From a virus: a stretch of DNA of 59,083 nucleotides. Below are positions 14,554 through 59,083 of the stretch, one piece after another. The stretch's first letter is position 1. Each line of letters opens with the position of its first letter. Made by a program: the position numbers and the translations under genes. The notes below the pieces were generated by a model, which had not been told where the DNA came from, searched no databases, and saw only the letters and a program-made list of their open reading frames with translations. The DNA lies in the IMG/VR virus record IMGVR_UViG_3300032278_002689, positions 1 to 59,083 of that record; one strand, 5' to 3'.

Positions 14554-14593
14554 ATTTACCTTTCGTATATCGGAATATTCGTTGTATATTAAA

Positions 14594-21624: not shown

Positions 21625-21638
21625 AAACACTTTTGAAG

Positions 21639-22705: not shown

Positions 22706-23602
22706 ATGATTACTCTAGAAGAAACATATCACGCCTCTGATTACGAAACATGGTTCGCCTACTGGAAACAATGTAGAGTTGCTACGGTTTACTTCAAATT
22801 TGCGCCGGGCTATACCGGAGAAGACAATCCTCTCCAAATACGTTTTAGAGAAATACCCGAAGGTGAAGATATGACTAAACCTCATCCAGACATTGAGGTA
22901 CAAATAATTGAATCACAAACAGAAACATATTGTGTTAGGGCACTATTAGACGCCCTACCCGAAGATTCTGTCTACAAAACCTTTTCCTTAATAGAGAAAT
23001 CTACACAAAATTATTATGATACCATAACAAAAAGAGAAAAAGAATTTAATGAATGGCAAGAATATAAAAAAAATGGTAATCTTACAATAGAAACTGTTGA
23101 TGAAACAAAACCCATCACATGGGAATCCATAAGAAATGCTTCAACAGAAGAATTGTTTCAAACAAAACTTGAAATATTTGAATCACCGCCCGTTCAAGAG
23201 ACTAATAAAAAAGAGTATCGTTCTGCTGTTAGAAAATCAAGTTCAATCATTGAGGCAATGTATTGGTACTATTTAATAGTTAATGAAGGTGAAGAAGACG
23301 GGGCGCGGTCAAAAATGGAAACAATTCCTGAAGATATAAATTCATTACTTATAGATATTCCTTCTGAATCAATTTTTAAATGGAAATTACAGATTTTCGA
23401 AAGAGAAGAAGTTCAAAATAGCGAAAACAAAAGAGCAAGAAGCAAAATTAGAAAAGCAAATAATTTAGTTGAACTATTTTCAGCCTATAATGAATTGGAT
23501 GAATCGGATCCAACAACTCCAACCATTGCAGAAAAATTTAAAAATTTAAATGATGAGGAAAAAGAAGAACTCAGAGAACTTCTTCAAGATAAAAAAGAAT
23601 AA
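22706..23602 (+). CDS. Probable structural or accessory protein with an internal duplication (298 aa)
   Basis: The 298-residue product begins MITLEETYHASDYETWFAYW. Its middle and C-terminus contain two related units of about 55 residues: one with STEELFQTKLEIFESPPVQE (about 147-205), one with PSESIFKWKLQIFEREEVQN (about 217-272). Each is followed by a basic R-S-x-x-RK-S/A helix. The rest is charged and helical. The family is not recognised. AGAAGG with an AATATAATG spacer precedes the start. Its 3' end overlaps the convergent glycosyltransferase gene by 19 bases, so no terminator separates them. Confidence 0.6.
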   Translation: MITLEETYHASDYETWFAYWKQCRVATVYFKFAPGYTGEDNPLQIRFREIPEGEDMTKPHPDIEVQIIESQTETYCVRALLDALPEDSVYKTFSLIEKSTQNYYDTITKREKEFNEWQEYKKNGNLTIETVDETKPITWESIRNASTEELFQTKLEIFESPPVQETNKKEYRSAVRKSSSIIEAMYWYYLIVNEGEEDGARSKMETIPEDINSLLIDIPSESIFKWKLQIFEREEVQNSENKRARSKIRKANNLVELFSAYNELDESDPTTPTIAEKFKNLNDEEKEELRELLQDKKE

Positions 23603-24231
23603 TCTATATCTTCATATTTAAAATGAATGATTTTAATGTCATCATGAAATCCGTCTAAATAAACATATTCTCCTGGATACATAGAATTTATTGATGCGAG
23701 TTCTTTTAAATTTTTTTTATTACACATTCTAGTTACCCATGTTTCAGGAAGATATTTTAATTTTAATTTTTTCTTTACTTGATCTTCTACAAAATATTGT
23801 TCCCCATTAACTGGTCCTGTTGTTATTTCACGTATAATATAATGTTGTGACCAATAATTAATATTGCTCATAAATTCATCATAAATGTATTTACAGTCTT
23901 TTGGATAATATTTTTGAAATCCACCACATAATGAATAATTTTCATTCCAGGTATCACTCCACCAAGATTTTACGGATAAAAATTCTCCTCTTTCTATGGG
24001 ATAATCAATAGCTTTAATGTAATCATTAATATAAAAAGTATCAATATCAATTACAAGAACTGGCTCATCAATATCCATATTCATGACTCGTAATTTATTC
24101 CATTGTAAATCTACTCCGGACAATTCATCTCTAATCCATGTAACATTCGATATTTTTGAATTAATATAATCTTCAACTCTTTGATCATATTTGTCACGCA
24201 CTCTAACTGCAAATACTTTTGTTTTATTCAT
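23584..24231 (-). CDS. GT-A type glycosyltransferase (last gene of the tailoring array)
   Basis: The 215-residue product has the small GT-A pattern of phage sugar transferases. It has an N-terminal KVFAVRVRDKYDQRVEDYI strand-helix, a LQWNKLRVMNM helix, then VLVIDIDTFYINDY with the DxD metal site near residue 63, and a VKSWWSDTWNENYSLCGGF acceptor-loop region. The 27006-27575 protein shares the WW...N.S...G...IYD-x-F pattern, so they are probably paralogues. Sugar and acceptor cannot be told. It starts with an ATGA overlap and ends inside the 3' end of the opposite-strand structural gene. Confidence 0.65.
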   Translation of the reverse strand: MNKTKVFAVRVRDKYDQRVEDYINSKISNVTWIRDELSGVDLQWNKLRVMNMDIDEPVLVIDIDTFYINDYIKAIDYPIERGEFLSVKSWWSDTWNENYSLCGGFQKYYPKDCKYIYDEFMSNINYWSQHYIIREITTGPVNGEQYFVEDQVKKKLKLKYLPETWVTRMCNKKNLKELASINSMYPGEYVYLDGFHDDIKIIHFKYEDIDYSFLS

Positions 24232-24743
24232 TTTCGGAAAACTGTGAAATCAATTGCAAATCTTTTCTTATCAGAAAGAATTTCTTCACCCGAATGTTTT
24301 TCTGACGGATCAAAAATACAAAATGATGTTGGTTTGATATAGTTGCTCATTCCGTTGTAAAAAAATCCACCACCCCATTCTTCTTTCCAATCACTATTAA
24401 TAATTCCTAGAATCTTAACACAATTATTATCTTTTTCCTCATCTATGTGTATATTATTTGGTGTATGTTTATCCTTTATTGATATACCACATAAACAAAT
24501 CTCTGGAATAAACAACCCTCGACCCCCTGTTTCATGAATCTGAAGTAATAATCCCATAGCAAGTCCCGCTAAAAGGGGATGTCTCATTCCATTAGTATTA
24601 ATAATGTCTAGTTTTAAAAACTTATCTTCGATTGAAAATTTTTCTCCAGCAGGAAATTTCAGATTCCAATTTTCAGAAGTAGATGCAAAGTATTTGAGTG
24701 TATCCAAATAATCTGGACTACAACAATTATTTAATATTTTCAT
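24228..24743 (-). CDS. Fe(II)/2-oxoglutarate-dependent oxygenase, prolyl hydroxylase-like
   Basis: The 171-residue product has the facial triad in order: H99 and D101 in NIHIDEEKD, H150 in PSEKHSGEE, and the co-substrate arginine R161 in KKRFAIDF. A GGGFFYNG turn near residue 125 matches the P4H-type double-stranded beta-helix. Such enzymes hydroxylate proteins, sugars or small molecules using oxygen and 2-oxoglutarate. It is flanked by two glycosyltransferases with ATGA overlaps on both sides, pointing to hydroxylation of a glycan or of its acceptor. It is one of six such oxygenases in the array. Confidence 0.8.
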   Translation of the reverse strand: MKILNNCCSPDYLDTLKYFASTSENWNLKFPAGEKFSIEDKFLKLDIINTNGMRHPLLAGLAMGLLLQIHETGGRGLFIPEICLCGISIKDKHTPNNIHIDEEKDNNCVKILGIINSDWKEEWGGGFFYNGMSNYIKPTSFCIFDPSEKHSGEEILSDKKRFAIDFTVFRK

Positions 24744-25531: not shown

Positions 25532-26594
25532 CGGTCCAAATATTACACAGTAAAATACGTTCTTTTGTTTCTGGTTTAGTGAAATCATATTCTCTAAAAA
25601 ATTCATCATTTACATGAATTGTTATATTTTCAAGACCAGCTTCAAGAAAAAAATCTGTTCTGTAACCCCAATCAGAACAGGTAAAAGCAGAATATTGCTC
25701 ATTATTTCTAAAAATTTTCACATGAATTGTTCCCTTTGGGGGCATAGCAAAAAATCTATATCCTTGTTGGGGTTCATACCACGCAAGACATATCCAAGGA
25801 TATTCAGCATCAGTATAAATTTTTTGTTTTTCGAAACCTATTCTTTGAACAGTCTCTTCAAGATTTTTTATTTCAATATTTTCTTCAAAAGTATTTGTGT
25901 TTTTATTCATATAAGATACACCAAGAACATATCCTAATAATTCTTCTCCCATCTGCATACCATAATCAACAATCATTTTTTTAAGATGATCATTAGGATA
26001 CATATTCAATCTTCGATATAAAAAATCTACATTACAAGACATAATCAATGTCATAATTTGCCAATGTCTGATTCTTCTATCTCCCCAATGTTCAACATCT
26101 AAATCTTCTGTTTCTCGTTCATAAAATACTGCTTGTTTTCCTTGATTTAATATAGTATCACTATTTTTTATTAATTCATCATCAAAAGGCAAAAATCCAT
26201 CATAGTCAAATAGGTGTATTACTTTTTTATTAAGAAGTTTTGCATATGTGACACCAGCAAGTAATAAACGTAAAACTGCAAATATTGTGTTATTTTTAAA
26301 AAATTCTCTACTTGCAATATTAAAAATAGGGAAAGTTTCTCCTTTGTCGTCACCGCCATAACAATAATGAATTAAGTATCCTTTCAATGTGGGATCATCG
26401 ATCAAGATATTATCTTTATCATAAATTGCATAATCAACTAATTCTTGGGTGTCTTTATCAAGAGGCAAATGGCTCGTAATCAAAACATCATATCCAAAAG
26501 ATTTAAATTGTTTTATAAATTTATGACAACATGATTTTCTCTCTTCATCAGACAAATATGCATGTATCAAAATTATATCATTTGTTTTATCCAT
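25521..26594 (-). CDS. Putative glycosyltransferase of a viral family (357 aa)
   Basis: The N-terminal half has DIILIHAYLSDEERKSCCHK, then FKSFGYDVLITSHLPLDKDT, VDYAIYDKDNIL and KLLNKKVIHLFDYDGFLPF (about residues 105-140). I associate this pattern with a glycosyltransferase-like family in large phages and marine viruses, where D-Y-D fills the metal site. The C-terminal part (about 240-357) seems to be a small beta domain with a receiver-like FFAMPPKGTIHVKIFRN strand pattern, perhaps substrate-binding. The product is soluble. The start overlaps the previous gene by eight bases. The function is tentative. Confidence 0.5.
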   Translation of the reverse strand: MDKTNDIILIHAYLSDEERKSCCHKFIKQFKSFGYDVLITSHLPLDKDTQELVDYAIYDKDNILIDDPTLKGYLIHYCYGGDDKGETFPIFNIASREFFKNNTIFAVLRLLLAGVTYAKLLNKKVIHLFDYDGFLPFDDELIKNSDTILNQGKQAVFYERETEDLDVEHWGDRRIRHWQIMTLIMSCNVDFLYRRLNMYPNDHLKKMIVDYGMQMGEELLGYVLGVSYMNKNTNTFEENIEIKNLEETVQRIGFEKQKIYTDAEYPWICLAWYEPQQGYRFFAMPPKGTIHVKIFRNNEQYSAFTCSDWGYRTDFFLEAGLENITIHVNDEFFREYDFTKPETKERILLCNIWTDAP

Positions 26595-27042
26595 AAATCC
26601 ACCCAGTTAAAGAATATCTTTTTCCTTTCAATACAGGATTAACTCTGTGTTCTAATTTTGAATCAAATCTAAGACAATCTCCCACATTCAATTCAATTGA
26701 ATCATAATCTTTAATTTCAAAAACTCCTCCTTGATATTCTACATTTAAGGGTATGACACATGTTTCTATTCTTTTACGATTGCTCAAGGTTTGATAATCA
26801 TTATGCCAATGATAATAATTTAACTTAGAATATTCTGAAAATTGAAATGTCATACCAGAACTATTAAATTTATTGTCCATAACAGAATCGTTTCCCCAAA
26901 TCCAAACCTTAGATTTTCTTTCAGAAGAAAATTCACCATTTATAATTTTAGCAGGATGAACTTTTTTTCTATAATTTATAATAAAGTCAAAACATTCTTC
27001 TTTTGTTAAGAAGTTTTTAATAATACGTATTTTTTTGTCCAT
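26587..27042 (-). CDS. Fe(II)/2-oxoglutarate-dependent oxygenase
   Basis: The compact 151-residue product has the full metal site: H80 and D82 in YYHWHNDYQ, H132 in KLEHRVNPV, and R142 in KGKRYSLTGW. The C-terminal RVNPV...K-R-Y-S-L-T-G-W run resembles the P4H/PiuC-like group. Oxygen-dependent hydroxylation of a protein residue or sugar is the likely activity. It overlaps the upstream glycosyltransferase by 37 bases, so expression is tightly linked with sugar transfer. Confidence 0.78.
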   Translation of the reverse strand: MDKKIRIIKNFLTKEECFDFIINYRKKVHPAKIINGEFSSERKSKVWIWGNDSVMDNKFNSSGMTFQFSEYSKLNYYHWHNDYQTLSNRKRIETCVIPLNVEYQGGVFEIKDYDSIELNVGDCLRFDSKLEHRVNPVLKGKRYSLTGWIYG

Positions 27043-27575
27043 TCTTCTGTTTTCATTGCAGGAGCAAAATTATGATTAAATAAACAAACTGAATAATTTA
27101 ATTCTTTTCGATTATAAGGATAAGACCAACATACTTCATCATAGATATTATAATCTATTTCTTTGTAAAGATATTCATCAATGCCTCTCCAATATTTTAC
27201 TCTGCTATAGTCTTCATCTTCATAAAATTTATCATAGATGTGAGAATAATCTCCTTTCCACGACATTATTGAAGAATTCAAAGGAGTATGAAACGGTTCT
27301 CTCCACCAGGCATTAATAAGTGTAAAATCATCTTTAATTAAATGAATTATAGAATCCTTAATAATTATATCTAAATCAAAATATAAATAATTTATATTAT
27401 CAGTACATTCTTTAAACATTTGTAATTTATCAAAAACAACACCTTCTCCTTCTCTTATGACATGATATTCAAATCTATATCTCAATTTTCCATGATTACG
27501 AATCATATGAAGAATATTATCAACATACCATTCATCATATTTATTTCCGGTACATACAAGAACAATGGTTACCAT
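27006..27575 (-). CDS. GT-A type glycosyltransferase
   Basis: The 189-residue product opens VTIVLVCTGNKYDEWYVDN, has VFDKLQMFKEC, then YLYFDLDIIIKDSI with DxD near residue 68, and a NAWWREPFHTPLNSSIMSW loop. The same overall plan is seen in the array's last gene. It resembles small capsule/LPS transferases that recognise a nucleotide sugar through the DxD and a divalent metal. The start overlaps the methyltransferase stop by seven bases. Confidence 0.65.
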   Translation of the reverse strand: MVTIVLVCTGNKYDEWYVDNILHMIRNHGKLRYRFEYHVIREGEGVVFDKLQMFKECTDNINYLYFDLDIIIKDSIIHLIKDDFTLINAWWREPFHTPLNSSIMSWKGDYSHIYDKFYEDEDYSRVKYWRGIDEYLYKEIDYNIYDEVCWSYPYNRKELNYSVCLFNHNFAPAMKTEEWTKKYVLLKTS

Positions 27576-28339
27576 TTTCCTATTACCATAAATCTATCAT
27601 ATAGGGGCAAAGATCGTTTTCCTTTATACAAAACATCTTTAATTTGATTTTTTTCAATCAATTCATTAACATCTTTTACACAATTTATATGATCTTCTAG
27701 CTCAAAATAATTATTTGATTGTATCACTAAAATGGGTTTCGTTGGATAATCTTTATAATATTCTTTCATTAAAGCAATATCAGCCATATGTTCTGAAGAA
27801 GTGTTTATTATTAATTGTCTTCTTCTTAATTCTTTACGTTCAAAAAAATCTCCAAATTGTGCAATTTTAAACTTTTCATCAAAATGATTTTTATATTGTG
27901 CAACTATCTTATGACAATTTTCATCCAAATCATATAAATCAACTTGTTTTATTTTAAAAATATCCGATAACATTTCAATTAACGGATATCCAAACCACGA
28001 ACCTATTATGTCAATATGAGACTCATCAAAATATTGTATTTTTTCTAACTCTTGAAAAAGCCACAATTTTGATTCATATTGTCCCTGAGATACAGAATCT
28101 TCAAAACTATTAGAATATGAAGGTAAATTATTATTAATCCATTGATTAACCCAATAATATGGTGTTTCTCGATTATCATTTTCACATATAGAAATTTCTT
28201 CTTTGTGTTCTCCGATAATCTCTCTAATTGAACCAATTTCTGTATTAAGTTCTCCGATTTGTTCATTACAAGAACCTATTTCAATATTATGCAGACTTAT
28301 ATCATTTTTATTTTTTCGCCAATTATATATTTGTTCCAT
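27569..28339 (-). CDS. SAM-dependent methyltransferase-like protein with a heptad-repeat N-terminus
   Basis: From ATG at 28339 (MEQIYNWRKNK) the product is 256 residues. A longer frame from 28384 lies inside the upstream gene. After the heptads (about residues 21-55) comes ESHIDIIGSWFGYPLIEML and then QVDLYDLDENCHKI, a Rossmann-type SAM site with an acidic residue after the second strand. IINTSSEHMADI follows as a possible motif IV. The methyl acceptor is unknown. The five IG-x-x-x-x-x heptads at the N-terminus suggest oligomerisation. Confidence 0.6.
   Translation of the reverse strand: MEQIYNWRKNKNDISLHNIEIGSCNEQIGELNTEIGSIREIIGEHKEEISICENDNRETPYYWVNQWINNNLPSYSNSFEDSVSQGQYESKLWLFQELEKIQYFDESHIDIIGSWFGYPLIEMLSDIFKIKQVDLYDLDENCHKIVAQYKNHFDEKFKIAQFGDFFERKELRRRQLIINTSSEHMADIALMKEYYKDYPTKPILVIQSNNYFELEDHINCVKDVNELIEKNQIKDVLYKGKRSLPLYDRFMVIGKW
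28175..28279 (-). repeat. Five 21-bp units encoding isoleucine-led heptads
   Basis: The units translate to IGSCNEQ, IGELNTE, IGSIREI, IGEHKEE and ISICEND. Units 2 and 4 start with the same ATCGGAGAAC, and units 1 and 3 resemble each other, so the array looks like a 42-bp unit duplicated. It codes a short candidate coiled coil before the methyltransferase domain. Confidence 0.7.
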
Positions 28340-28742
28340 ATACACAATAATGTTTATATTTTTTATTTTTACTTTGTATTTCAAATGAATTAAAAACTTC
28401 TGTCAGTTCATTATCTTCTATTAATTTATCAATCGAATGAATAGGATTACAATCACCATTATGTTCTTTATCATCACCTCTTAATATGAAAATTCCTTTA
28501 TGTATTCTACCTACAGGATATGTTTTTTCACAATTATAATGCAATACACAAGTATGTAATTTAACATTATCAAATACAAAATCATTACACATAACACTTG
28601 GCATATCTCTAAAATTAATATCATAATTTATATTATCAATTTCCATATCCAATCCCCTCAATGTTTTAATAAATTTAAAACTAGGACAACATAGTACAGA
28701 TATTTTTTCGTGATTTACAGCCCAATAGAATAACTTTTCCAT
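28323..28742 (-). CDS. Hypothetical protein, 139 aa
   Basis: The family is not recognised. The product starts MEKLFYWAVNHEKISVLCCP, has FRDMPSVMCNDFVFDN in the middle and ends in KYKHYCVYGTNI. It is soluble with six cysteines and mixed alpha/beta composition. HKGIFILRGDDKEHNGD might be a strand-turn typical of a nucleotide- or methyl-transfer fold, but no catalytic motif stands out. It overlaps both neighbours (a glycosyltransferase and a methyltransferase), so it probably acts in the same pathway. Confidence 0.5.
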   Translation of the reverse strand: MEKLFYWAVNHEKISVLCCPSFKFIKTLRGLDMEIDNINYDINFRDMPSVMCNDFVFDNVKLHTCVLHYNCEKTYPVGRIHKGIFILRGDDKEHNGDCNPIHSIDKLIEDNELTEVFNSFEIQSKNKKYKHYCVYGTNI

Positions 28743-29440
28743 AATTCCTGTACTGGTGATTCATGTAATTCATAATGTTTGATTTCTTTCATATTTTCAT
28801 TATTATAAAGATGTGATGTATTAAATAATGTCACCTTATTTTTTAATTGATAATTTTCTTTATTATAATTTGAAAATACTTCTTTTTCCCACAAATTCAA
28901 TCTACCATTTCTATGATGTTGATAAAACAAATATTTGTCTAAACTCTTATATGTCCACTTTATTTTTTCCCAATTTTCTTTAGTATATTTTAAGAGCCAA
29001 GTGGCTGTTCCTTTGTCCCATGCAACAAATGATGAATTTGTATGACAAGACACTCCTCTGCCATAATTAAATAAACTTATCTCTTCATAATCATTCCAAT
29101 AATTCCATATAAATGTAATATTATGATGTTTTCTTGTTATTAGCTCAGTTACATCTTCATGCACTAATACATCTAAATCTATCCAAAAGTTTTTATCATA
29201 TTCATCATTATCAATAAGAAATAATTTTTCATAAGTAAAAACTCTCTTTGTATCATATGGTCTAAGTTCTTGAATATCTTTTATTTCGATTTTAGAAGAT
29301 ATCCCTTTAGAATCATCAGTATAACACACAAAATGAAATGGTATTTGACAATGTTTCAGCAATCCACCATACGTTCTATTAACATAGTCAGAATTATATT
29401 TTGTGCCCCATTTAAGACAATTTATTTTAATATTATTCAT
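28715..29440 (-). CDS. GT8-like glycosyltransferase
   Basis: From ATG at 29440 (MNNIKINCLKWGTKYNSDYV) the product is 241 residues. The 24 residues ahead of it in the longer frame lie inside the preceding gene. KWGTKYNSDYVNRTYGGLLK, then IPFHFVCYTDDSKGI, and NFWIDLDVLVHEDV with the DxD near residue 88 follow the GT8/GT-A plan. VSCHTNSSFVAWDKG is the acceptor-side loop. The start sits in ATGAATAA, overlapping the SGNH gene stop. Its nucleotide sugar is unknown. Confidence 0.68.
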   Translation of the reverse strand: MNNIKINCLKWGTKYNSDYVNRTYGGLLKHCQIPFHFVCYTDDSKGISSKIEIKDIQELRPYDTKRVFTYEKLFLIDNDEYDKNFWIDLDVLVHEDVTELITRKHHNITFIWNYWNDYEEISLFNYGRGVSCHTNSSFVAWDKGTATWLLKYTKENWEKIKWTYKSLDKYLFYQHHRNGRLNLWEKEVFSNYNKENYQLKNKVTLFNTSHLYNNENMKEIKHYELHESPVQELWKSYSIGL

Positions 29441-30263
29441 AAATAAACATCGGTGGAGGGGGTTCAGACCCTTGATGTTCAGCAAATGGATCATCATATG
29501 CTGTATATACAAACCAACTAGAATCTGGTTCTTCCTTATTTAAAATATCACTACAAAACAATGCAAATTTTTCATTCTGTTCTACTGTCATATGATTATC
29601 AAGTACATCCTTCGGCGGACCGTGATATTTTCCTACCATATATGATATCGGTGTTGACACATAGTAAAAATTATATGTATTTAAATATTCAAAATCTAAA
29701 TCATGTAATAACTTAGTAGATTTAATATTAAAATTTTTATATTTAGAAGTAAAATGATCAAGACTGAAACAGGTAAAAACTAAAAAATTATATTTTTTAA
29801 ATTGTTTAGATAACAAATGTAAAAATGTGATATTTTTTACATTTTCATATAGATACATCGGTCCCAAAGTATTAGCAACTGCTTTTATTTCAGACTTATA
29901 ATTTTTATATTGTCTTCCTCGTTCGGGATTAGCAAACCTCGATGGGAGAGTGTCAGGAAGCGGCATGTTTTCTGCTAATAAAAACTGACCATCTGCATGA
30001 CCATCTTTTTCCAACCAAGGAAATTCCATTCTTTTTTGATCAGATAATAAAACTATAATAGTGTCTTGATGTTCTGGAGCATAAGTAAGCCTGGAGGAGG
30101 GGTCTTCTAAATGGGTTATTAATTTTCTTAAACTCCAATTAGGACCTGTTCCTCCCTGACCATTACAAATCACTTCTTGATTTTGTAATTTTTCCAATTC
30201 GAATGGCCAAGTTCCAGGTTCATAATTCTCACCAAAACTATCAGAATATACGTGTATAGTCAT
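29433..30263 (-). CDS. SGNH/GDSL-type hydrolase or acyltransferase
   Basis: From ATG at 30263 the product is 276 residues, beginning MTIHVYSDSFGENYEPGTWP. S9 in the SDSFG block is the expected nucleophile. NGQGGTGPNWSLRKL supplies the glycine block, and DVLDNHMTVEQNEKF near residue 225 carries the likely D/H pair. Such enzymes add or remove acyl groups on sugars. The upstream radical SAM stop is one base away, and the next glycosyltransferase overlaps by eight bases, so sugar acyl editing is a reasonable guess. No signal peptide is seen, so it acts in the cytoplasm. Confidence 0.6.
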   Translation of the reverse strand: MTIHVYSDSFGENYEPGTWPFELEKLQNQEVICNGQGGTGPNWSLRKLITHLEDPSSRLTYAPEHQDTIIVLLSDQKRMEFPWLEKDGHADGQFLLAENMPLPDTLPSRFANPERGRQYKNYKSEIKAVANTLGPMYLYENVKNITFLHLLSKQFKKYNFLVFTCFSLDHFTSKYKNFNIKSTKLLHDLDFEYLNTYNFYYVSTPISYMVGKYHGPPKDVLDNHMTVEQNEKFALFCSDILNKEEPDSSWFVYTAYDDPFAEHQGSEPPPPMFIYE

Positions 30264-30264
30264 A

Positions 30265-42820: not shown

Positions 42821-42822
42821 TT

Positions 42823-43464: not shown

Positions 43465-43506
43465 AATGGTTCCTCGATAATAGCTTGTTAATCACACTTT
43501 ATATTA

Positions 43507-43514
43507 TATTTATA
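43507..43514 (-). promoter_or_regulatory. T4-type late promoter TATAAATA inside the array
   Basis: TATAAATA is a perfect match to the T4 late promoter and overlaps the stop of the upstream radical SAM gene. A start about six bases later would give a leader of about 37 bases before the nitroreductase ATG. In AT-rich DNA this octamer arises by chance. Its place in one of the only intergenic gaps supports it. Confidence 0.5.
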
Positions 43515-48584: not shown

Positions 48585-48587
48585 AAG

Positions 48588-48944: not shown

Positions 48945-48956
48945 TTATATCCTTCT

Positions 48957-50140: not shown

Positions 50141-50162
50141 CACCCCTTCATTTACATTCAGA

Positions 50163-50819: not shown

Positions 50820-52446
50820 CGAATTTCTCCATTTCTGTCCTAGGTCCTAAAGTCAATCGTATACCATCAAGACATTTTCTCACTAAAATTCCTTGATCAG
50901 CAAGTTTATCTGCATTATTAGGATCAGTATGTATGAAAATAAAATTGCCATATTCTCCTCCTTGAGTACTAACATTCATTTTGTTTAATTCCTCAATCAA
51001 ATAATCACGACCTTTATTCATTTCTTGCACGTATTCGTCTTTTATTTCTTCATGATTAATAAAATAATGTGCAGTTTGTAAAGATAGTAAATTAGTCTCA
51101 TATCCATTTCTATTATTTGAGATATATTTAATATTATGTTCTTGTGACATAATATAACCTAATCTAATACTAGCAAGACCAAAAGCCTTCGAAAAACTTC
51201 GCATTATCACTAAATTATTATACTCATCAATCAGCGGCAAATAATCAGGAACATTAAAACCAAAATAAACATCATCAAGAGCAATTATTTTATCTGTATT
51301 AGAACAAATATTACGTATTTCATCTTCTGAATAACTATTACCATATGGCACATTAGGATTTTGCAAAAATATTAAATCTGCATTATCCATGTTATGATCT
51401 CTTATCAATCGAAAAATATTAGCATAAACATCATACATTGCATAAGTAGGAGTGTCATAATATACAGTAGTTTCAGCATAAAGTTCCATTAAATTTCTAA
51501 TCGCACCCGAAACCCCTTCAGTAAAAAACAATTTACTAGAATCTATATTCAACCAATCTGCAAAAATATTATAATAAGCATCTACATCAGGATATTTCCA
51601 AACATTGTTAGCTAATTTTTTTCTCAAATCATTCATTGTGGAAATATGAAATGGTGTCACTCTTTCATTTTTATCTAAAGGAACACCAACTTTATCAACC
51701 CCCTTCGATCTATCACGGAAAAGATACTCTATATGTTTTTTCGTACTCTTTTTAATCTGCATCTTGCTATCAAACTTTTCTATTTTCTTCCCCATGAAGT
51801 TATTATAATGTAATATTCCATTTATCAGTTCAATATCTTCAGGAGTCTTGACTACCATTCCTGCTTTTTTTGATATAGGACCATACATTTTATGTTTCCC
51901 ACAAAAAATGTTTTTTTCTTTCATAAAAACATTCGTTCTCACTACCTGTACAGAATATGCTATCAATTTCACAGGTTCTAAATCTTGAGTCTTACACATT
52001 TTTCCATATTCAAAATTAATAGGTCGATCACCTAAACATGTATGAATATATTTTAATTCATATGTATTACAAGAATCTAATTCATTTTCTTCATAATAAG
52101 CCATCACCTTAGCAATTTCTTCTCCGGTTTGTAGAGGATTTATTGTATTCACTATTGCGACAGTATGCAAGTATGGGTGTTTTTCTATAAAGTCATAAAA
52201 CACATCATCAATTAATGTCTCAGACGAACCTAACTCTGTAGGTCTTTCATAATATTCAACACCATATTCCTCTGCAATCTTTCTAAAAACATCATTATCT
52301 CCGTTCACTATAACTTTATCAAAACAATTTGATTCAAGAGCGGCTTTTATAGCCCAAGCCATCATGGGTTCACCACCTATTAATGCTAAATTTTTAAGTT
52401 TTGCTCTTGTACTGCCATATCTACAAGGTATCATAGCATATTTCAT
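50797..52446 (-). CDS. Fusion: cytidylyltransferase + class I/II aminotransferase
   Basis: The 549-residue product joins two enzymes. Residues 1-215 are a CMP-sugar-type nucleotidyltransferase (IPCRYGSTRAKLKNLALIGG at residues 6-25; INPLQTGEEI near 105). Residues 245-549 are a HisC-like PLP aminotransferase: LQNPNVPYG near 365, ALDDVYFGF near 393, and K420 in MRSFSKAFGLASIRLGY. The pair could make an amine and a CMP- or CDP-linked unit, as in CMP-activated sugars or aminoalkylphosphonates. The donor-side motif differs from NeuA and KdsB in detail, so the product is not known. The start has an ATGA overlap. Confidence 0.8.
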   Translation of the reverse strand: MKYAMIPCRYGSTRAKLKNLALIGGEPMMAWAIKAALESNCFDKVIVNGDNDVFRKIAEEYGVEYYERPTELGSSETLIDDVFYDFIEKHPYLHTVAIVNTINPLQTGEEIAKVMAYYEENELDSCNTYELKYIHTCLGDRPINFEYGKMCKTQDLEPVKLIAYSVQVVRTNVFMKEKNIFCGKHKMYGPISKKAGMVVKTPEDIELINGILHYNNFMGKKIEKFDSKMQIKKSTKKHIEYLFRDRSKGVDKVGVPLDKNERVTPFHISTMNDLRKKLANNVWKYPDVDAYYNIFADWLNIDSSKLFFTEGVSGAIRNLMELYAETTVYYDTPTYAMYDVYANIFRLIRDHNMDNADLIFLQNPNVPYGNSYSEDEIRNICSNTDKIIALDDVYFGFNVPDYLPLIDEYNNLVIMRSFSKAFGLASIRLGYIMSQEHNIKYISNNRNGYETNLLSLQTAHYFINHEEIKDEYVQEMNKGRDYLIEELNKMNVSTQGGEYGNFIFIHTDPNNADKLADQGILVRKCLDGIRLTLGPRTEMEKFVVVFRKI

Positions 52447-53264
52447 ATCATCTCCATTAATTTATTATAACTATCTTTTCCTAATAATAAACCATTTGCA
52501 TCACATTCTTTACAAGATATCACGTTACATCTATTTCCTTTAGACAATTCTTTTCTGTACTTGTTCATTTTATCAGACATCCAAAGTTCTTCTAATGTGT
52601 TTTCTCTCAGATTTCCTAAACTTTCCTTATATTTCCAGTCATTACAACAAAATCTAAGATCCATAGTCAGATCAATATATCCTTTATAAAAAGGCAAATA
52701 ACATTTTCTATCTAATGATTTTTCAATAGTTTTAAAAGATCCGGATCTATTATTAAAAATTGAAGACTGTAATCCACCAGCAAAATGATTTTTAATCACT
52801 CCACATCTATCACCTAAAATTTCTATTTTTTTATTATAATTTTCTTCATTATCATATTCATCTAGAATTATTCTACTTAATCCATTATCAAATAACTCAT
52901 CCAACATACTCGGAAATTCTAATATCTTATCACCATTTGAAATTAATTCTATCCATTCATTTTTAAACACATTAACAATTTCAAGAATATCTGGATTGAG
53001 AAGAGGCTCTCCCTTACCACTTATAATAATAATGCCTTGATATTCAAATTCATCAAGTCTATTTTTAATTAAATAAGCATCATCGATTGTTAAGTGTTCA
53101 TCTTTATTAGGATATCCATTTCCTCTGGGACAAAAACTACATGTTCTATTACAAAGTTCTGTAGGATTTATCTCAACGGTAGTCATTCCTAAAACGGATT
53201 TTAAATTTTCATATTGAGCGGATCTAAAATTTATATGATTACTGGAAGAAAACGAATCATTCAT
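52443..53264 (-). CDS. Radical SAM/SPASM protein (273 aa)
   Basis: C38-x3-C42-x2-C45 is in LCNRTCSFCPRG. GIIIISGKGEPLLNPDILEI takes the SAM-binding strand. The C-terminal SPASM-like part has LRFCCNDW near residue 207, NTLEELWMSDKMNKYR and a final CNVISCKECD. It differs from both other groups in the array. It lies next to a cytidylyltransferase-aminotransferase fusion and a 2OG oxygenase, with ATGA overlaps. Peptide or amino-acid modification is typical for SPASM enzymes, but the substrate is unknown here. Confidence 0.83.
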   Translation of the reverse strand: MNDSFSSSNHINFRSAQYENLKSVLGMTTVEINPTELCNRTCSFCPRGNGYPNKDEHLTIDDAYLIKNRLDEFEYQGIIIISGKGEPLLNPDILEIVNVFKNEWIELISNGDKILEFPSMLDELFDNGLSRIILDEYDNEENYNKKIEILGDRCGVIKNHFAGGLQSSIFNNRSGSFKTIEKSLDRKCYLPFYKGYIDLTMDLRFCCNDWKYKESLGNLRENTLEELWMSDKMNKYRKELSKGNRCNVISCKECDANGLLLGKDSYNKLMEMI

Positions 53265-54286
53265 AATCTTGCGTTTATATCTAATGCTATAAAAAATTGA
53301 TAAGTATTATCTTCAAACGACATTGCATCATGCCATATTGAACTATCATGTAAATACAATCTTCCTGCTTCTACATTCTTCTCAGAAATATAACTCTCAT
53401 ATTCTTTTTTTATATCATTCCAAACTAATTTCTCTCCATCATCAGATTTATATCGTAATTTAACCGATTCAGGATGAGTAGTTCCCCACAATCTTAACCA
53501 AGAAGACTTATTTTTCCACGTATCTATGTGAGGTTTAAAATGTCCTAGAGTGTTAAATTTTAAAATACAAGAACGCAACATATATTTTTCAATAGATTCT
53601 AAAACTTTTAACGAGGTTAAGTTCATAACTTCAGTTTTCATTAAAAAATCTGTCTCATTCACCATTTTATTCATATCAAAAGGATCCGTATAAAATTTAG
53701 TGAAATCTTCTGGTGTGTCTTTATATCCCAAATTAACAAAGTTCCATCTATCTAGAGGCCAGCATGAAGGTTCTACTTTATTATTAAGCGCACCATTCAT
53801 ATTAATTAAAGGTAATCCAAATCTTCCAAATTCTTGAAATTTATCTCCCCAAGACTTAAAGCAATCTCTATATTGTTTAATTTCTTCTAAAAATTTGTCA
53901 ACATTAATTTTTATATTGGTGGGTTGAAGATTTTGCTTGTGTAGATTCACATATTCTTCTTCGTTCATTATGGGAATATTATCTTTTATTTCATATTTAT
54001 ATTGAATATCATTACTATTCATATGTTTTTTTTGTTGCTCTCGTAATTTTATACTCCCTTCATATTCTTCTTGAGTATGATATCGATGATATAATATTCC
54101 GATATTTGGTTTTTGAAACACTAAGTTAAAAAAACAATGACCATATTTGTCCATCAATTTAAAATTATATTTTCTTAATGGATCTGTGTCTTCTGGAACA
54201 TAATTATCAACCATAAAAGTTTTAAATTCATCCTTATTCGTAAATTCTTTATATGGGTAAACTATTTTTGTTATTACTGTAATCAT
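53261..54286 (-). CDS. 2-oxoglutarate oxygenase-like protein with long N-terminal extension (341 aa)
   Basis: Residues 1-215 are not recognised. The C-terminal half has FNTLGHFKPHIDTW with H253 and D255, and SSIWHDAMSF with H319. In AspH-like enzymes an arginine follows the distal histidine by about ten residues; here Y-Q-F occupies that place, and R340 lies far down. The oxoglutarate site may be altered. LRLWGTTHPES near 264 fits the strand before. The N-terminal part may bind the substrate. ATGA overlaps occur with both neighbours. Confidence 0.65.
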   Translation of the reverse strand: MITVITKIVYPYKEFTNKDEFKTFMVDNYVPEDTDPLRKYNFKLMDKYGHCFFNLVFQKPNIGILYHRYHTQEEYEGSIKLREQQKKHMNSNDIQYKYEIKDNIPIMNEEEYVNLHKQNLQPTNIKINVDKFLEEIKQYRDCFKSWGDKFQEFGRFGLPLINMNGALNNKVEPSCWPLDRWNFVNLGYKDTPEDFTKFYTDPFDMNKMVNETDFLMKTEVMNLTSLKVLESIEKYMLRSCILKFNTLGHFKPHIDTWKNKSSWLRLWGTTHPESVKLRYKSDDGEKLVWNDIKKEYESYISEKNVEAGRLYLHDSSIWHDAMSFEDNTYQFFIALDINARL

Positions 54287-55110
54287 TTTGGTTTAAATCC
54301 CGTATCTCGACCACCAGAATCATTTATGTTTATATTAAAAAACTCACCATCATATATTTTATTCTTAAATTTAAAAACACCCTCTCCATGAAATCTATTT
54401 TTTTTCCAATATCCTGTATAGCTACCAGTATTAAAAATTGCCTCCCCATATCCATGTATATGACCTTCTTTAAATTGACCCTTAACGTATTCTGTTCCAT
54501 GATAAAAAATACCATTACCATCAAAATACCCATCAACAAATTCTCCCTCATAATATCGACTCTTAGAAAAAACTAATTTTCCAGTACCAGAATAATTTCC
54601 GTCTTCATCAAATTCTCCAATATAAAATGTACCATCTGGCCATATTTCTTTCATATTTGATTTCTGAAATCCATGCCGATCAAAACTTTCATTTAAAGGC
54701 TCTGCCCATTGTCCGTCACCTGTTATCCAAAAATCATCACCTTTCATTCCTTTAGGACCAACACCCATTTCTCCAAAATACTTATTTCCATTCCATATCT
54801 TAAAACATCCTGTACCACAAGCTCGATCATTCGTAAATTCTCCTACATATGTTGCGCCTGAAACCCACTTATGCATTCCTATTCCAATATGTGCATTTTT
54901 ATCAAATTCGCAAACTATTTTTCGTTCCCAGTCGGTTCCAGCTCCTTGTATTTTCAATCCTATACCATGAGCTTTGTCATTTTCAAACTCTCCAACATAT
55001 TTTTGATTCCACAGTTCTATTTCATAAAAACCTATTCCATGTTCTTTTTCATTTTTTGTATCACCAAAATATCTTCTTCCTCCTTTTATACTACTATATG
55101 TCTCATTCAT
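54283..55110 (-). CDS. MORN-repeat protein (275 aa)
   Basis: From ATG at 55110 (MNETYSSIKGGRRYFG) the product is built of about nine MORN-like units, with hits such as KYVGEFENDKAHGIG, ATYVGEFTNDRACGTG, TFYIGEFDEDGNYSGTG and YYEGEFVDGYFDGNG. These beta-hairpins bind membranes or partners in eukaryotes and occur in some bacterial proteins. In a phage sugar cluster it may be a scaffold or a lipid/glycan-binding protein. The start overlaps the SGNH gene in ATGAATGA. A catalytic role is unlikely. Confidence 0.85.
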   Translation of the reverse strand: MNETYSSIKGGRRYFGDTKNEKEHGIGFYEIELWNQKYVGEFENDKAHGIGLKIQGAGTDWERKIVCEFDKNAHIGIGMHKWVSGATYVGEFTNDRACGTGCFKIWNGNKYFGEMGVGPKGMKGDDFWITGDGQWAEPLNESFDRHGFQKSNMKEIWPDGTFYIGEFDEDGNYSGTGKLVFSKSRYYEGEFVDGYFDGNGIFYHGTEYVKGQFKEGHIHGYGEAIFNTGSYTGYWKKNRFHGEGVFKFKNKIYDGEFFNININDSGGRDTGFKPK

Positions 55111-55828
55111 AAATAAAATCACCTTCTATGCCTTGATTGTAATAAGTAAGAAAATAATTTGCTATTGCTCTATGTCCAAATTTATTAGGATGAAAATCAT
55201 CTTCACTTATATGATACTCATTATGATTTTCATAATCTATAATATCCAATACTTTGGGTATGGGTCCTTGCCAATATCGATTATTTTTACAAATATCAGG
55301 AAATTTTGATAAATTAAAAATATCATAAGGAGCATTATATCCCTCTTTTTTAAATCTTTCTAATTTTCCTATCTGTAAAGGACTAATACCTTGACCACAA
55401 AGATATTCTATACCTTTCGATTCACACAACTGTTTGGCCATATAGAACATTCTCAAATTTAAATTCACAACTTTTTTTAATGAAAAATGTTTATATGCAA
55501 ATCCATGCGGCAGTCCTCTTTCATATTCATGCATCATTCTCATAATTAAAGAAGAAGTCATATCTTTTGAATCTGTTTCAAAAAAACTTTGTCTGTCCCA
55601 TCCAGTCCATAAAATACATACATCAGTTATATCAGAATATTCATATAGGTAATCATATAAAAGATAAAAAATCTTTTCATTTCCTGCCGCAATTTGTCCT
55701 AAATTCACTACCTCAATTCCCAATTCTTCACCTAAAACTGAGGGCCATCTTAAAAAATTAAGATCAGACCTATAGTTATTATCTGTATAACTACATCCTA
55801 AGCATAATAATTTTTTACTCTTTTGCAT
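55103..55828 (-). CDS. SGNH/GDSL-type hydrolase or acyltransferase
   Basis: From ATG at 55828 (MQKSKKLLCLGCSYTDNNYR), preceded by GGAG, the product is 241 residues. S13 in GCSYTDN is the nucleophile. AAGNEKIFYLLYDYLYEYSD provides the later block, and ISEDDFHPNKFGHRAIANYF near 210 has the D-x-x-H pair. Such enzymes remove or transfer acyl groups on sugars or natural products. It lies between MORN and radical SAM genes. It is the second SGNH-type enzyme of the array and differs from the first. Confidence 0.68.
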   Translation of the reverse strand: MQKSKKLLCLGCSYTDNNYRSDLNFLRWPSVLGEELGIEVVNLGQIAAGNEKIFYLLYDYLYEYSDITDVCILWTGWDRQSFFETDSKDMTSSLIMRMMHEYERGLPHGFAYKHFSLKKVVNLNLRMFYMAKQLCESKGIEYLCGQGISPLQIGKLERFKKEGYNAPYDIFNLSKFPDICKNNRYWQGPIPKVLDIIDYENHNEYHISEDDFHPNKFGHRAIANYFLTYYNQGIEGDFIYE

Positions 55829-56988
55829 GTATGAGCCAGCTCCCATATTTCAGGATTAACATCTGAAAATTTTCTTTTTTGATATTCATCTAAATGCTTC
55901 ATTGATTTTACAAATTCTAACAATTTATTTTCAGACTGTTCTTCATCTAATATTATTGTATTGAAATCTCGTACATCATCATATACCTGTTCAAGACCCA
56001 TAAAATATATGGTATTTAATTTTTTAGATAAATTTATTTTCCACTGTTTTCTCATATTTAACGGTATCATATTAGATTTTAAATAACTGGGCCAAAACAA
56101 AGAATAACAAGTTTGTGGGGAATCATAATGTCTAGAAAATTCTAAAATACTCTGTAGCTTGTTTATATTCATTATACTGACAGTAGTTACTAATTTAATA
56201 ACAAAATCTGTTTTTAAAAATTTTTCAATATTTTTTACTATCATTTTCCAGGGAGCGCCGAATCTCATAACTTCTGCTAACTCTTCAACAGCATCTATAC
56301 TTATATCTAAATAAACTTTTTTACATTTATTCAACAAACGCAATAATTCATCATCTGGAAAAACACTACCATTAGTAGTAATCTTTAAGTAAATATTTTT
56401 TAAATCTAATTTATTCAAAAACCATTTCAAATTTCGACTCAAAAACGGCTCTCCTCCAACTATAGCAACTCTTTTTAAATTAGATAAATCAGAATTTTCT
56501 AATAATGTCTTTATTTTTTTAGAATAATTATTAATAGACAACGGTTCATAATGATCATGTTCGAATTCTTTCAATTTCTGTATAACACTTGTTGCTTTAT
56601 TCCATGTTGAACTGATTCCTGGTCTACAAGACCTACACATAAAATTACAACTAAAATCTAATGAAATTTCTAAATCTTCTATAAGTTGTATTTGATGATT
56701 CTTTAAACACAAATCATTATAATATTTTCTTTTACTTAAATATCCTATTCTTTCAGCATTCCAACAATTTTTACATCCTTCATACTTCACTCCCTCCGAA
56801 AACATTTCTCGTAAATCATACCATCTGTAAGATTTTAATAATCTACTTAATGTATTTACAGAATTTAAATTAACTTGATCCCAATGAGGGTTTGCGGAAG
56901 TGTCAAAGTGACAACAAGGAGAAATTTTACCTTCAGGTTGAGTAATAGATAAATGATTTTGTTGATATGTACAGACTAATTTTTCCAT
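55798..56988 (-). CDS. Radical SAM protein with N-terminal twitch-type cysteines (396 aa)
   Basis: C114-x3-C118-x2-C121 is in SCNFMCRSC. The N-terminal domain has C6, C25-C26 in ISPCCHFD, and C72-x2-C75 in CKNCWNAER. AIVGGEPFLSRNLKWFLNKL and KITTNGSVFPDDELL follow. It has the same plan as 37333 and 32326 and is the last radical SAM protein at this end. It overlaps the adenylating enzyme by 13 bases, so its substrate may be the acyl group or amino acid activated there. Confidence 0.82.
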   Translation of the reverse strand: MEKLVCTYQQNHLSITQPEGKISPCCHFDTSANPHWDQVNLNSVNTLSRLLKSYRWYDLREMFSEGVKYEGCKNCWNAERIGYLSKRKYYNDLCLKNHQIQLIEDLEISLDFSCNFMCRSCRPGISSTWNKATSVIQKLKEFEHDHYEPLSINNYSKKIKTLLENSDLSNLKRVAIVGGEPFLSRNLKWFLNKLDLKNIYLKITTNGSVFPDDELLRLLNKCKKVYLDISIDAVEELAEVMRFGAPWKMIVKNIEKFLKTDFVIKLVTTVSIMNINKLQSILEFSRHYDSPQTCYSLFWPSYLKSNMIPLNMRKQWKINLSKKLNTIYFMGLEQVYDDVRDFNTIILDEEQSENKLLEFVKSMKHLDEYQKRKFSDVNPEIWELAHTCKRVKNYYA

Positions 56989-57584
56989 GTTTCATTTTGT
57001 ATTAATCTACCCATACATTGATTATGTTCAAATTTATCTTCCGTATCAAAACCATTAACTATCAAAGAATTTTGATATTCCAAATAGTATGGGGTATCTT
57101 TAAAATCAAATATTGTATTATTTGACATCAAAACAGGAGGAATACATTCAGTAGAACCATAAATATTCCATATATTTTTTGCTCCTGTTGCTTCTAATTG
57201 AGCAATATCCCAATCAGTAATTGGTGCAGATCCCGTACATAAATTTTTAATGAAATCTAATTTTGGCATTCTTCTTTTGATCAAAGTTCTAAAAGTTCCT
57301 ATTGCTAATGTTAAAATAGTAGGTTTCAATTCCTCTACCATATCCCAAAATTTAAAAGGTTCCATCTTAACATTTATTACTTCACATCCAACTGTTTGAG
57401 CAGGAATAATACAAAAAGCCCAACTTGCTATAGTCCAAGTAGGAAAAGGATTTAAAATTATATCTTCAGGGGTTAACTCCCATTTATTACATAAAAATTG
57501 TGCTGGCTTATAAAAATCCATTTCATCATGAGTAACACGTTTTTGTTTTCCTGTAGTTCCACTGGTAAATATTGTAATTTTCAT
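56976..57584 (-). CDS. Half-size acyl-adenylating (ANL superfamily) protein
   Basis: From ATG at 57584 the product is 202 residues. The AMP-binding core has FTSGTTGKQKRVTH at residues 6-19, and NIWNIYGSTECIPP with the A5-type G-S-T-E near residue 145. It stops soon after, so the C-terminal lid domain (motifs A8-A10, with the catalytic lysine) is missing. A normal ANL enzyme has about 500 residues. It may adenylate without thioester formation, or work with a partner. ATGA overlaps the upstream stop, so the start is secure. Confidence 0.75.
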   Translation of the reverse strand: MKITIFTSGTTGKQKRVTHDEMDFYKPAQFLCNKWELTPEDIILNPFPTWTIASWAFCIIPAQTVGCEVINVKMEPFKFWDMVEELKPTILTLAIGTFRTLIKRRMPKLDFIKNLCTGSAPITDWDIAQLEATGAKNIWNIYGSTECIPPVLMSNNTIFDFKDTPYYLEYQNSLIVNGFDTEDKFEHNQCMGRLIQNETWKN

Positions 57585-58039
57585 AATTCCCAAATCTCCT
57601 GAACTTCACCATAGACTTCTTGAGTTCCTATATATGTGCTTCCGGGCCATCCTCTTCCTGTGTGTACCCACTTCCTTAGTCTATTACTTTTAGCTCCCGC
57701 ATTATTTGATATGTTGAGAGTAAAATAAAAAATAGACTTATCATGAATATTATTAATATAATCCATTTGAGCATGTGCTTGAATCTTATTTAAAAATTTA
57801 TTTGAAACACCAGATAAAGTTGCTCCTCTGAACATTACTCTATATCCATCTAAAAAATCATGAACACCGCTCAATGAAACTATTTTGTCATCTGCGAAAT
57901 GACCAAACCAAATTGCTTTATCCCATTTCATTGCCTCTAACGATTGATTATTTACATAATTCAACTTTTTACATTTTATACAAAATTCATGAACCTGAAA
58001 AAGGTGATCATCTGTCAACTGCAGTAGTTCTGTTATCAT
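57581..58039 (-). CDS. GNAT-like acetyltransferase (putative)
   Basis: The 152-residue product has AIWFGHFADDKIVSLSGVHD then YRVMFRGATLSG, comparable to the N-terminal strands of a GNAT fold, and SIFYFTLNISNNAGAKSNRL with RKWVHTGRGW near the end. The GNAT pyrophosphate loop (Q/R-x-x-G-x-G/A) is not obvious. The family is uncertain. Its tight ATGA overlaps with the adenylating enzyme and carbamoyltransferase put it in the same pathway. Confidence 0.5.
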   Translation of the reverse strand: MITELLQLTDDHLFQVHEFCIKCKKLNYVNNQSLEAMKWDKAIWFGHFADDKIVSLSGVHDFLDGYRVMFRGATLSGVSNKFLNKIQAHAQMDYINNIHDKSIFYFTLNISNNAGAKSNRLRKWVHTGRGWPGSTYIGTQEVYGEVQEIWEL

Positions 58040-59083
58040 AAAACTTTCACATCTGTTTTTATTTCAAACTTCTTTACATCTTTTTCATTATTAACAATGG
58101 GCTCTCCTTTTATATTTAAGGACGTATTCAATAGCATTGGACAACCTGTTTCTTTTTTCCATTCTTCAAGCAATGTTCGATGAGGATCTTCTGTCACCTC
58201 CTGAATTCTTGATGTTCCATCAAGGTGTACTATACTAGGATATAATTGTTGGGTTTGATGAGTTGCATTTCTAACAGTATTCATATAAGGCGAAGATATT
58301 CCTTTTTCAAAAAAGGTATTCACATCTTCTTTTAGAATCATTGGCGCAAATGGCCTAAATTTTTCTCGACCTTTTACTTTATTCACTTTATTTTTCATGT
58401 CAAGAATCGATGGATCAGCAAACAATGATCTATTGCCCAATGCTCTCGGACCAAATTCTGCTCGACCTTTCGCAACACCCACCATATGATTTTCTTTAAG
58501 TTCTTTGATAATCTCTGTGACAGGATATTCTCCTGCAATTTCGTAACCAAGATATGGATTTGGTTCTATTTTATGATCTAAAGCACATCCAATAGCAGAT
58601 CCACCATCGCCCGGATTACAAGGAATGTATGTATTAAATTTTGTAAGAAAACGATTTGCAGACACATTTAAAGCACATCCACCAACAAAAACAAGATTTT
58701 CATCATCAATTTTGTCTATAATTTTTTGAAATTCTTCTTCATATATATCTTGTGCTATGGCGGCTATCTCAAACTCATCAGTCAATCCTTCTAAATCTAT
58801 TCCTTGATGAAAACTTTTATTATTGTTCCACATTGATTTAATATATTGATAATCATGTATATTATAGTTTTGTGTGACTGCTGATGCTCCCATTAAAATA
58901 TATTCTTCTTCATTTGGTTTCCAACCTGCCGCCTGAGTCATTGCAGAATAAAACAAACCAAGCGATTTAGGATAATCCCATTTTTCAATTAATGTAAAAT
59001 CACCATCTTTTACTTTCCATTGAGTCATAGTATTCCATTCACCAATGGCGTCTATTACTAAAACTGTACAATCTATAAAAGGA
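58036..59083 (-). CDS. NodU/CmcH/TobZ-family O-carbamoyltransferase, 5' end beyond window
   Basis: The open frame continues past ATG at 59026-59028 to the right edge, reading PFIDCTVLVIDAIGEWNTMT, so the gene begins outside and this ATG is internal. The visible part covers the second half of the Kae1-like domain (SLGLFYSAMTQAAGW; FVGGCALNVSANRFL) and the C-terminal carbamoyl-phosphate domain: KGRAEFGPRALGNRSLFADP, GREKFRPFAP and CPMLLNTSLNIKGEPIVN. The family puts a carbamoyl group on sugar or antibiotic hydroxyls via carbamoyl-AMP. The metal-binding histidines lie outside. It overlaps the GNAT-like gene by four bases. Confidence 0.88.
   Translation of the reverse strand, partial: PFIDCTVLVIDAIGEWNTMTQWKVKDGDFTLIEKWDYPKSLGLFYSAMTQAAGWKPNEEEYILMGASAVTQNYNIHDYQYIKSMWNNNKSFHQGIDLEGLTDEFEIAAIAQDIYEEEFQKIIDKIDDENLVFVGGCALNVSANRFLTKFNTYIPCNPGDGGSAIGCALDHKIEPNPYLGYEIAGEYPVTEIIKELKENHMVGVAKGRAEFGPRALGNRSLFADPSILDMKNKVNKVKGREKFRPFAPMILKEDVNTFFEKGISSPYMNTVRNATHQTQQLYPSIVHLDGTSRIQEVTEDPHRTLLEEWKKETGCPMLLNTSLNIKGEPIVNNEKDVKKFEIKTDVKVL

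Follow-up and report, generated by a model that had tools for sequence, protein, structure and literature searches.

Gene content and setting of the array

The stretch analyzed here, which we call the window, is the whole 59,083-bp linear record IMGVR_UViG_3300032278_002689 from IMG/VR, and the subject of this analysis is the array of radical S-adenosylmethionine (radical SAM) and other tailoring genes that runs from position 23584 to its right-hand end. Pfam matches to gp32, gp59, gp5, gp53, and a T4 baseplate protein assign the window to a T4-like phage, and comparison of gp32 places HTVC008M, Melnitz, and cyanophages closest among isolates, at ~57% identity. No tRNA was found in the window. 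As an earlier note on this DNA had described, the array is a one-strand run of overlapping genes: its 43 open reading frames (ORFs) all lie on the minus strand and overlap at 38 of 42 junctions, the remaining gaps measuring 2, 3, 12, and 45 bp, with 62 bp uncovered in total. ORF starts were set mechanically, and the true start of the radical SAM gene at 38418 to 39725 is probably to the left of 39725. The array is cut by the right edge of the window and continues for a further 15 to 20 kb in relatives. Cysteine makes up 2.3% of codons in the array versus 0.56% in the T4 core. Features are listed in Table 1, and array genes are named by their left-hand coordinate.

The count of eleven radical SAM proteins given in the earlier note is borne out. 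CxxxCxxC occurs in exactly 11 array ORFs, and the products of all 11 match PF04055, 10 of them above its cut-off and the eleventh (40289) passing NF033640, the model for N-twitch radical SAM proteins (cut-off, 170 bits). Five window proteins in all pass NF033640, which is a subfamily name only and for which we know of no tested function. Profile scores under a cut-off were not taken as support, and a viperin-like identity for 33720 was dismissed, its 43 bits lying far below the cut-off of 180.

Other families proposed from the sequence fared unevenly. Profile comparison confirmed the amidinotransferase, Pfam the NodU-type carbamoyltransferase, and Pfam together with Protein Data Bank (PDB) matches the fusion of a NeuA-like protein to an aminotransferase. 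Among aligned amidinotransferase sequences, H200 and H320 are invariant and C321 is found in 12 of 13; the closest solved relative of the family profile, built from 13 phage homologs, is an inosamine-phosphate amidinotransferase (1bwd), a cyclitol enzyme. Five of the six 2-oxoglutarate (2OG) oxygenases proposed are retained, two (26587 and 47976) through Pfam and three (41709, 48957, and 53261) as candidates through an invariant HxD and distal His with an invariant Arg nearby; the sixth, 24228, has the motif alone and no homolog. About eight glycosyltransferases had been counted, of which 28715 stands by its GT-A fold and 27006 and 23584 by profile comparison (hhalign linkage read from 1119 protein pairs), the other five being without support. 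The QueC-like label of 39547 survives marginally: its score lies just over the cut-off and the match covers the last quarter of PF06508 only, with an N-terminal PP-loop motif present and with SGGADS and a C-terminal Cys motif invariant in 14 sequences of the family. Four families had gone unmentioned, namely a nitroreductase (42823), a class I methyltransferase fold (27569), an AMP-binding protein (56976), and MORN repeats (54283). Predicted folds gave the assignments for 28715 and 27569; PDB profile searches with these two proteins and 46709 returned no sequence match, and a PHROGs search of ten unknown proteins returned a single weak match, to a family of unknown function.

A conserved core across divergent phages

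We asked whether the array belongs to the phage or had been joined to it by misassembly of bacterial DNA. An independent 87-kb contig, G003, is collinear with nearly the entire window, array and T4 core alike, mostly at 57 to 95% protein identity, and a near-complete relative, laid out in like manner, is a 161-kb contig found in a Chloroflexi metagenome-assembled genome (MAG). Since contigs G003 and G026 are both collinear with the array, and since its codon usage and its GC content at third codon positions equal those of the T4 core (correlation, 0.99; GC content, 0.18 in each), we reject an assembly chimera, in line with the earlier assignment to a T4-like phage. The 161-kb contig (PAAV01000055.1, L064) and a second one of 80 kb (PBYV01000081.1, L065, in an Acidimicrobiaceae MAG) are phage contigs that appear to be mis-binned, and such mis-binning would wrongly assign radical SAM genes to bacteria. 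In ~595 genomes sampled around these two MAGs to look for bacterial contexts, NF033640 gave one match apart from the phage contigs binned there.

Conserved order in related phages had been proposed as a check on the array, and order is indeed kept in 8 of 9 relatives, with |tau| of 0.71 to 1.0; the exception is G002, with 12 shared genes, a |tau| of 0.33, and a p of 0.15. The array adjoins gp59-gp32 wherever both are visible, and it does so in the window, G003, G026, G011, and G012. The left half of the window's array and the core are constant among relatives, while the right half is variable, with whole cassettes gained or lost.

We placed 144 radical SAM proteins from 10 records in a quick tree, whose deep forks are weak and whose paralog clades are independent of those forks. 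Because the window paralogs fall into separate clades, most of which hold orthologs from other, divergent phages (clade spread in Table 1), they are, as judged from their sequences, old, distinct, and non-redundant. A profile search of IMG/VR with 40289, the most conserved gene of the array, returned 396 relatives, of which 80 were kept, giving 34 non-redundant loci at 90% under single linkage. Within 9 kb of these 40289 relatives lie SPASM-type radical SAM genes in 28 loci, the 27569 family in 24, the 33720/38418 radical SAM genes in 18, and the QueC-like gene in 13, and the number of radical SAM genes per locus ranges from 1 to 13. In several distant phages, the linkage is reduced to 27569, 30265, and 40289, so that the minimal trio, by predicted family, is an N-twitch radical SAM protein, a SPASM-type radical SAM protein, and a methyltransferase-fold protein. 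The core as a whole (radical SAM, QueC-like, methyltransferase-fold, and glycosyltransferase genes) keeps its order and linkage across phages at 40 to 90% protein identity. Within the literature searched, this ancient, ordered, non-redundant radical SAM core with its minimal trio is new, as is its linkage, across marine phages, to genes for sugar-nucleotide enzymes, amidinotransferases, and halogenases.

The density of radical SAM genes in a T4-like phage, by comparison, is not new in itself. The view that such families occur singly in phages does not hold, given the multi-radical SAM clusters published for T4-like phages in 2010 (PMC2853527), in 2017 (PMC5332604), and in 2020 (PMC7029224). 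Campylobacter phages CP220 and CPt10 have 11 to 12 radical SAM genes per genome (PMC2853527). The block of cultured CP220 comprises five radical SAM genes, a StrB/AGAT-type amidinotransferase gene, and two nucleotide-sugar transferase-like genes, with a sixth radical SAM gene nearby and a tail fiber gene downstream; the matching CPt10 block differs and yet has the same functions, which was described as module exchange (Timms 2010, PMC2853527). The window likewise brings together several radical SAM genes, an amidinotransferase gene, and sugar-transferase genes in a T4-like phage, and its proteins are related to those of CP220 (E values down to 1e-33 for radical SAM proteins and 3e-47 for the amidinotransferase). 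However, the CP220/CPt10 type has five to six radical SAM genes in ~14 kb versus 11 to 20 in 30 to 50 kb for the array type, has a block in which neither a 2OG oxygenase nor a halogenase is annotated, and occupies another genome location. The module of that type differs between close relatives; in the array type, the right half and cassettes shift and the left half and core stay.

Marine counterparts are also on record. TARA_ERS488813_N000010, a 183-kb marine T4-like genome with 12 radical SAM genes reported as Fe-S related (Nishimura 2017, PMC5332604), resembles the window, by its published description, in habitat, phage type, and radical SAM number, and the passage on it contains no pathway, synteny, or paralog analysis. 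Pelagimyophages have hypervariable regions with glycosyltransferases and radical SAM cassettes (Zaragoza-Solas 2020, PMC7029224), and, like HTVC008M, they share with the window a marine T4-like backbone (gp32 at 57% identity) and a variable region with glycan and radical SAM genes. Their host recognition cluster, however, lies between VrlC and gp14 and contains tail fiber genes, whereas the window array lies beside gp59-gp32, and HTVC008M has one radical SAM motif protein in the stretches examined.

A proposed surface-glycan pathway and competing explanations

In several relatives the core genes sit among sugar-nucleotide genes. Genes for DegT, a UDP-sugar dehydrogenase, a cupin, and a TagD-like CTP transferase surround the core trio in L018; G001 to G003 have an RmlA-like NTP transferase and DegT at the array end; and one run in cultured HTVC008M combines radical SAM, methyltransferase, carbamoyltransferase, NadE-type PP-loop, UDP-sugar dehydrogenase, and 2OG oxygenase genes. 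Nine of 19 records, but not the window, encode a flavin halogenase (PF04820), which lies inside the array in G001, G003, and G006. Carbamoyltransferase and StrB-type amidinotransferase genes are likewise interspersed with the core in relatives. Two loci bear on the site of action. Vibrio phage K566 (L089, 16.6 to 34 kb) encodes five radical SAM-motif proteins with the gene for PagP, a lipid A enzyme, a few kilobases away, which points to the host envelope. In G026 (G026:C1, 98.9 to 112 kb; L070 to L071), a second group of three radical SAM ORFs closely follows a gene for a 1,662-aa Gly-Ser-Ala repeat protein that has a stretch in common with the CP220 tail fiber, and one of the three is related to the CP220 radical SAM protein encoded upstream of that fiber, an arrangement that points to the virion.

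As a set, the families look like one biosynthetic pathway, as had been suggested, and we lean slightly toward reading the array as an exchangeable pathway with which marine T4-like phages tailor a surface glycan. Of the products and targets put forward earlier, a tailored surface glycan is the best inference from context, and, among the three targets (virion, host surface, and DNA), DNA ranks last in likelihood. The glycan reading draws on the sugar-nucleotide context of the core in L018, G001 to G003, and HTVC008M; on the GT-A fold of 28715, two further glycosyltransferases recognized by profile, and two large glycosyltransferase proteins adjoining the array; on the kinship of the amidinotransferase to a cyclitol enzyme, its nearest relative of solved structure; on the pairing, in CP220, of radical SAM and amidinotransferase genes with nucleotide-sugar transferase-like genes in a block that is exchanged in CPt10; and on the conserved order among relatives. 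It is also consistent with the PagP gene near the K566 cluster and with the published opinion that links glycosyltransferases of pelagimyophage variable regions to an altered host O-chain (PMC7029224).

In such a pathway, the N-twitch and SPASM radical SAM proteins, QueC-like ATPase, methyltransferase-fold protein, and GT-A glycosyltransferases of the core would make or edit a rare sugar, with the radical SAM proteins probably performing C-H chemistry on sugars. Variable decorators would attach guanidino, carbamoyl, hydroxyl, and phospho-amino groups, with halogens added as well in relatives. The glycan may be built on the envelope of the infected cell (lipopolysaccharide or capsule) or on the virion; as an envelope coat it could exclude other phages or mask receptors, and an arms race might drive the decorator swaps. 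The pathway would presumably act late. A T4-late-promoter-like TATAAATA at 43507 to 43514, 43 bp upstream of the 42823 gene and inside the one array gap of appreciable size, is kept in G001, and TATAAATA occurs in the window more rarely than expected; however, the case for a late promoter is weak, since the similar ATAAATA of distant relatives apparently sits within a coding region. It is possible, if rather doubtful, that the array represents a virus-encoded pathway, of long standing in marine T4-like phages, in which at least a dozen dedicated radical SAM proteins edit C-H bonds to yield a new class of sugar. Such sugars would bear guanidino, carbamoyl, and hydroxyl groups, plus halogens in relatives, and would coat the host envelope or virion as a swappable antigen or receptor mask.

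Several observations weigh against a glycan. No array radical SAM protein tested scored above the cut-off for a characterized sugar-acting family, and SPASM and twitch radical SAM proteins modify peptides at least as often. The sulfotransferase-like label (50163) and two SGNH labels (29433 and 55103) of the earlier note found no Pfam match, and their loss counts here because both would have favored a glycan. DegT, epimerase, and NTP_transferase are unmatched in the window, which stops inside the array. The main rival, which we consider unlikely, is modification of virion proteins, with radical SAM proteins, oxygenases, and halogenases acting on tail or fiber residues (e.g., of the Gly-Ser-Ala repeat proteins of relatives) and glycosyltransferases glycosylating the modified residues. 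The frequent peptide-modifying role of SPASM and twitch enzymes and the G026 group behind a fiber-like gene both argue for it, but at least eleven old paralogs together with sugar-nucleotide genes are more than protein modification requires. Nor does the array resemble a cluster for ribosomally synthesized and posttranslationally modified peptides: the core contains no conserved small precursor-like ORF, larger ORFs tile the array almost fully, and the only small paralogs, 46336 and 48588, occur in no relatives but the closest.

It is more improbable still that there is no single pathway and that the array is a hotspot accumulating unrelated metabolic genes and cassettes. The variable right half, with cassettes inserted or lost whole, and the module exchange between CP220 and CPt10 (PMC2853527) would fit such a hotspot, but an unselected one would not keep the order and linkage of a core at the protein identities observed. 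Halogenase, amidinotransferase, adenylation, and carbamoyltransferase genes recall natural-product clusters; nevertheless, a soluble small molecule produced during infection seems very unlikely, given that the profile matches include no polyketide synthase or nonribosomal peptide synthetase, carrier protein, or exporter and that glycosyltransferase and structural genes are adjacent. We give the least credence to DNA hypermodification through a 7-deazaguanine route involving the QueC-like protein and a radical SAM protein. Although a QueC-like PP-loop protein belongs to the core and the QueD family occurs in 5 of 19 relatives, QueD is unmatched in the window (a fragment) and in G003, the G011 QueD lies >100 kb from the array, none of the window radical SAM proteins tested passed the QueE model, and in CP220 both QueD and QueC are outside the radical SAM cluster.

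Multi-radical SAM clusters have been on record in T4-like phages since 2010. The array and its relatives supply a defined ancient core, a minimal trio, and a sugar-pathway context, and CP220/CPt10, Vibrio phage K566, and HTVC008M offer routes into cultured phages. If the sugar reading is true, marine phages would hold a large unexplored store of surface-directed radical and halogenation chemistry.

Feature coordinates and further observations

Table 1. Features of the window, all on the minus strand, with the evidence for each assignment
Feature	Position	Strand	Evidence
T4 gp32 + gp59, core genes flanking the array region	13663..15184	-	PF08804, PF08993, PF08994
Array-associated three-domain glycosyltransferase (GT2-GT4-GT9)	15405..18959	-	Pfam
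Array-associated glycosyltransferase + FkbM methyltransferase	18946..21630	-	Pfam
GT-A-like glycosyltransferase, linked to 27006	23584..24231	-	No Pfam match; hhalign to 27006, E=2e-8
Possible 2OG oxygenase, motif only	24228..24743	-	HID99...H150...R161; no homolog or profile match
2OG-Fe(II) oxygenase	26587..27042	-	PF13640, 54.6 bits (cut-off, 27)
GT-A-like glycosyltransferase	27006..27575	-	hhalign to 28715, E=8e-16
Class I methyltransferase-fold protein, conserved core	27569..28384	-	AlphaFold pLDDT 90; Foldseek to SAM methyltransferases
Small conserved core protein, related to C-terminal part of 27569	28323..28742	-	hhalign, E=1e-6
GT-A-fold glycosyltransferase, core	28715..29512	-	AlphaFold pTM 0.79; Foldseek to UGGT, LARGE1, GT6, LgtC, E ~1e-7 to 1e-6
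Radical SAM, minimal core	30265..31305	-	PF04055, 40.6 bits; clade of 8 records
Radical SAM, N-twitch type	32326..33723	-	PF04055; NF033640, 209 bits
Radical SAM, core	33720..34829	-	PF04055, 60.9 bits; clade of 8 records
Radical SAM + SPASM, core	34826..35758	-	PF04055 + PF13186; clade of 9 records
Radical SAM, SPASM-like tail, core	36359..37345	-	PF04055, 32.6 bits; clade of 9 records
Radical SAM, N-twitch type	37333..38421	-	NF033640, 242 bits
Radical SAM, core	38418..39725	-	PF04055, 39 bits; clade of all 10 records
QueC-like PP-loop ATPase, core	39547..40317	-	PF06508, 23.7 bits (cut-off, 22)
Radical SAM, N-twitch type, most conserved array gene	40289..41719	-	NF033640, 392 bits; clade of all 10 records
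Putative 2OG oxygenase	41709..42233	-	H85, D87, H143, R153 invariant in 5 sequences; no Pfam match
Nitroreductase-family flavoprotein	42823..43464	-	PF00881
Radical SAM, N-twitch type	43510..44838	-	PF04055; NF033640, 201 bits
StrB/AGAT-type amidinotransferase	44835..45830	-	Profile to 1bwd, E=1.2e-88; predicted catalytic His, Cys kept
2OG-Fe(II) oxygenase	47976..48584	-	PF03171, 26.8 bits (cut-off, 23)
Putative 2OG oxygenase	48957..49508	-	H116, D118, H159, R170 invariant in 6 sequences; no Pfam match
NeuA-like cytidylyltransferase fused to HisC/CobD-like aminotransferase	50797..52446	-	PF02348 + PF00155; PDB matches
Radical SAM + SPASM	52443..53264	-	PF04055 + PF13186
Putative 2OG oxygenase	53261..54286	-	H253, D255, H319 invariant in 10 sequences; no Pfam match
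MORN-repeat protein	54283..55122	-	PF02493
Radical SAM, N-twitch type	55798..56988	-	PF04055; NF033640, 219 bits
Short AMP-binding (adenylate-forming) protein	56976..57593	-	PF00501, 74.6 bits
NodU/CmcH-type carbamoyltransferase, truncated by window edge	58036..59082	-	PF16861 + PF02543

The closest phage relative of the three-domain glycosyltransferase at 15405 to 18959 is encoded by the 735-kb uncultured phage LR756501.1 (35% over 748 aa). The small paralogous proteins at 46336 to 46722 (128 aa) and 48588 to 48944 (118 aa) have no family match. Some relatives possibly have split radical SAM/SPASM proteins, with separate ORFs of 91 to 125 aa, bearing a SPASM-like cysteine pattern, coming after two radical SAM cores of ~230 aa (L056:3182-5158; G001, 29.8 to 31.8 kb, L061; and L053:11703-13643). 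Radical SAM proteins of ~1,400 aa, apparent multi-enzyme fusions, are encoded at L022:8669-12907 and by frames of 1,416 to 1,423 aa in G016 to G018, G020, and G021. At L033:2307-7760, on a 328-kb contig, a ClpS-looking ORF, an Fe-S assembly protein (PF01883), and a ClpP-looking ORF adjoin the radical SAM core, and the single-cell-derived Marine virus AG-345-D19 (L090 and L103) has amidinotransferase-like and carbamoyltransferase-like genes.

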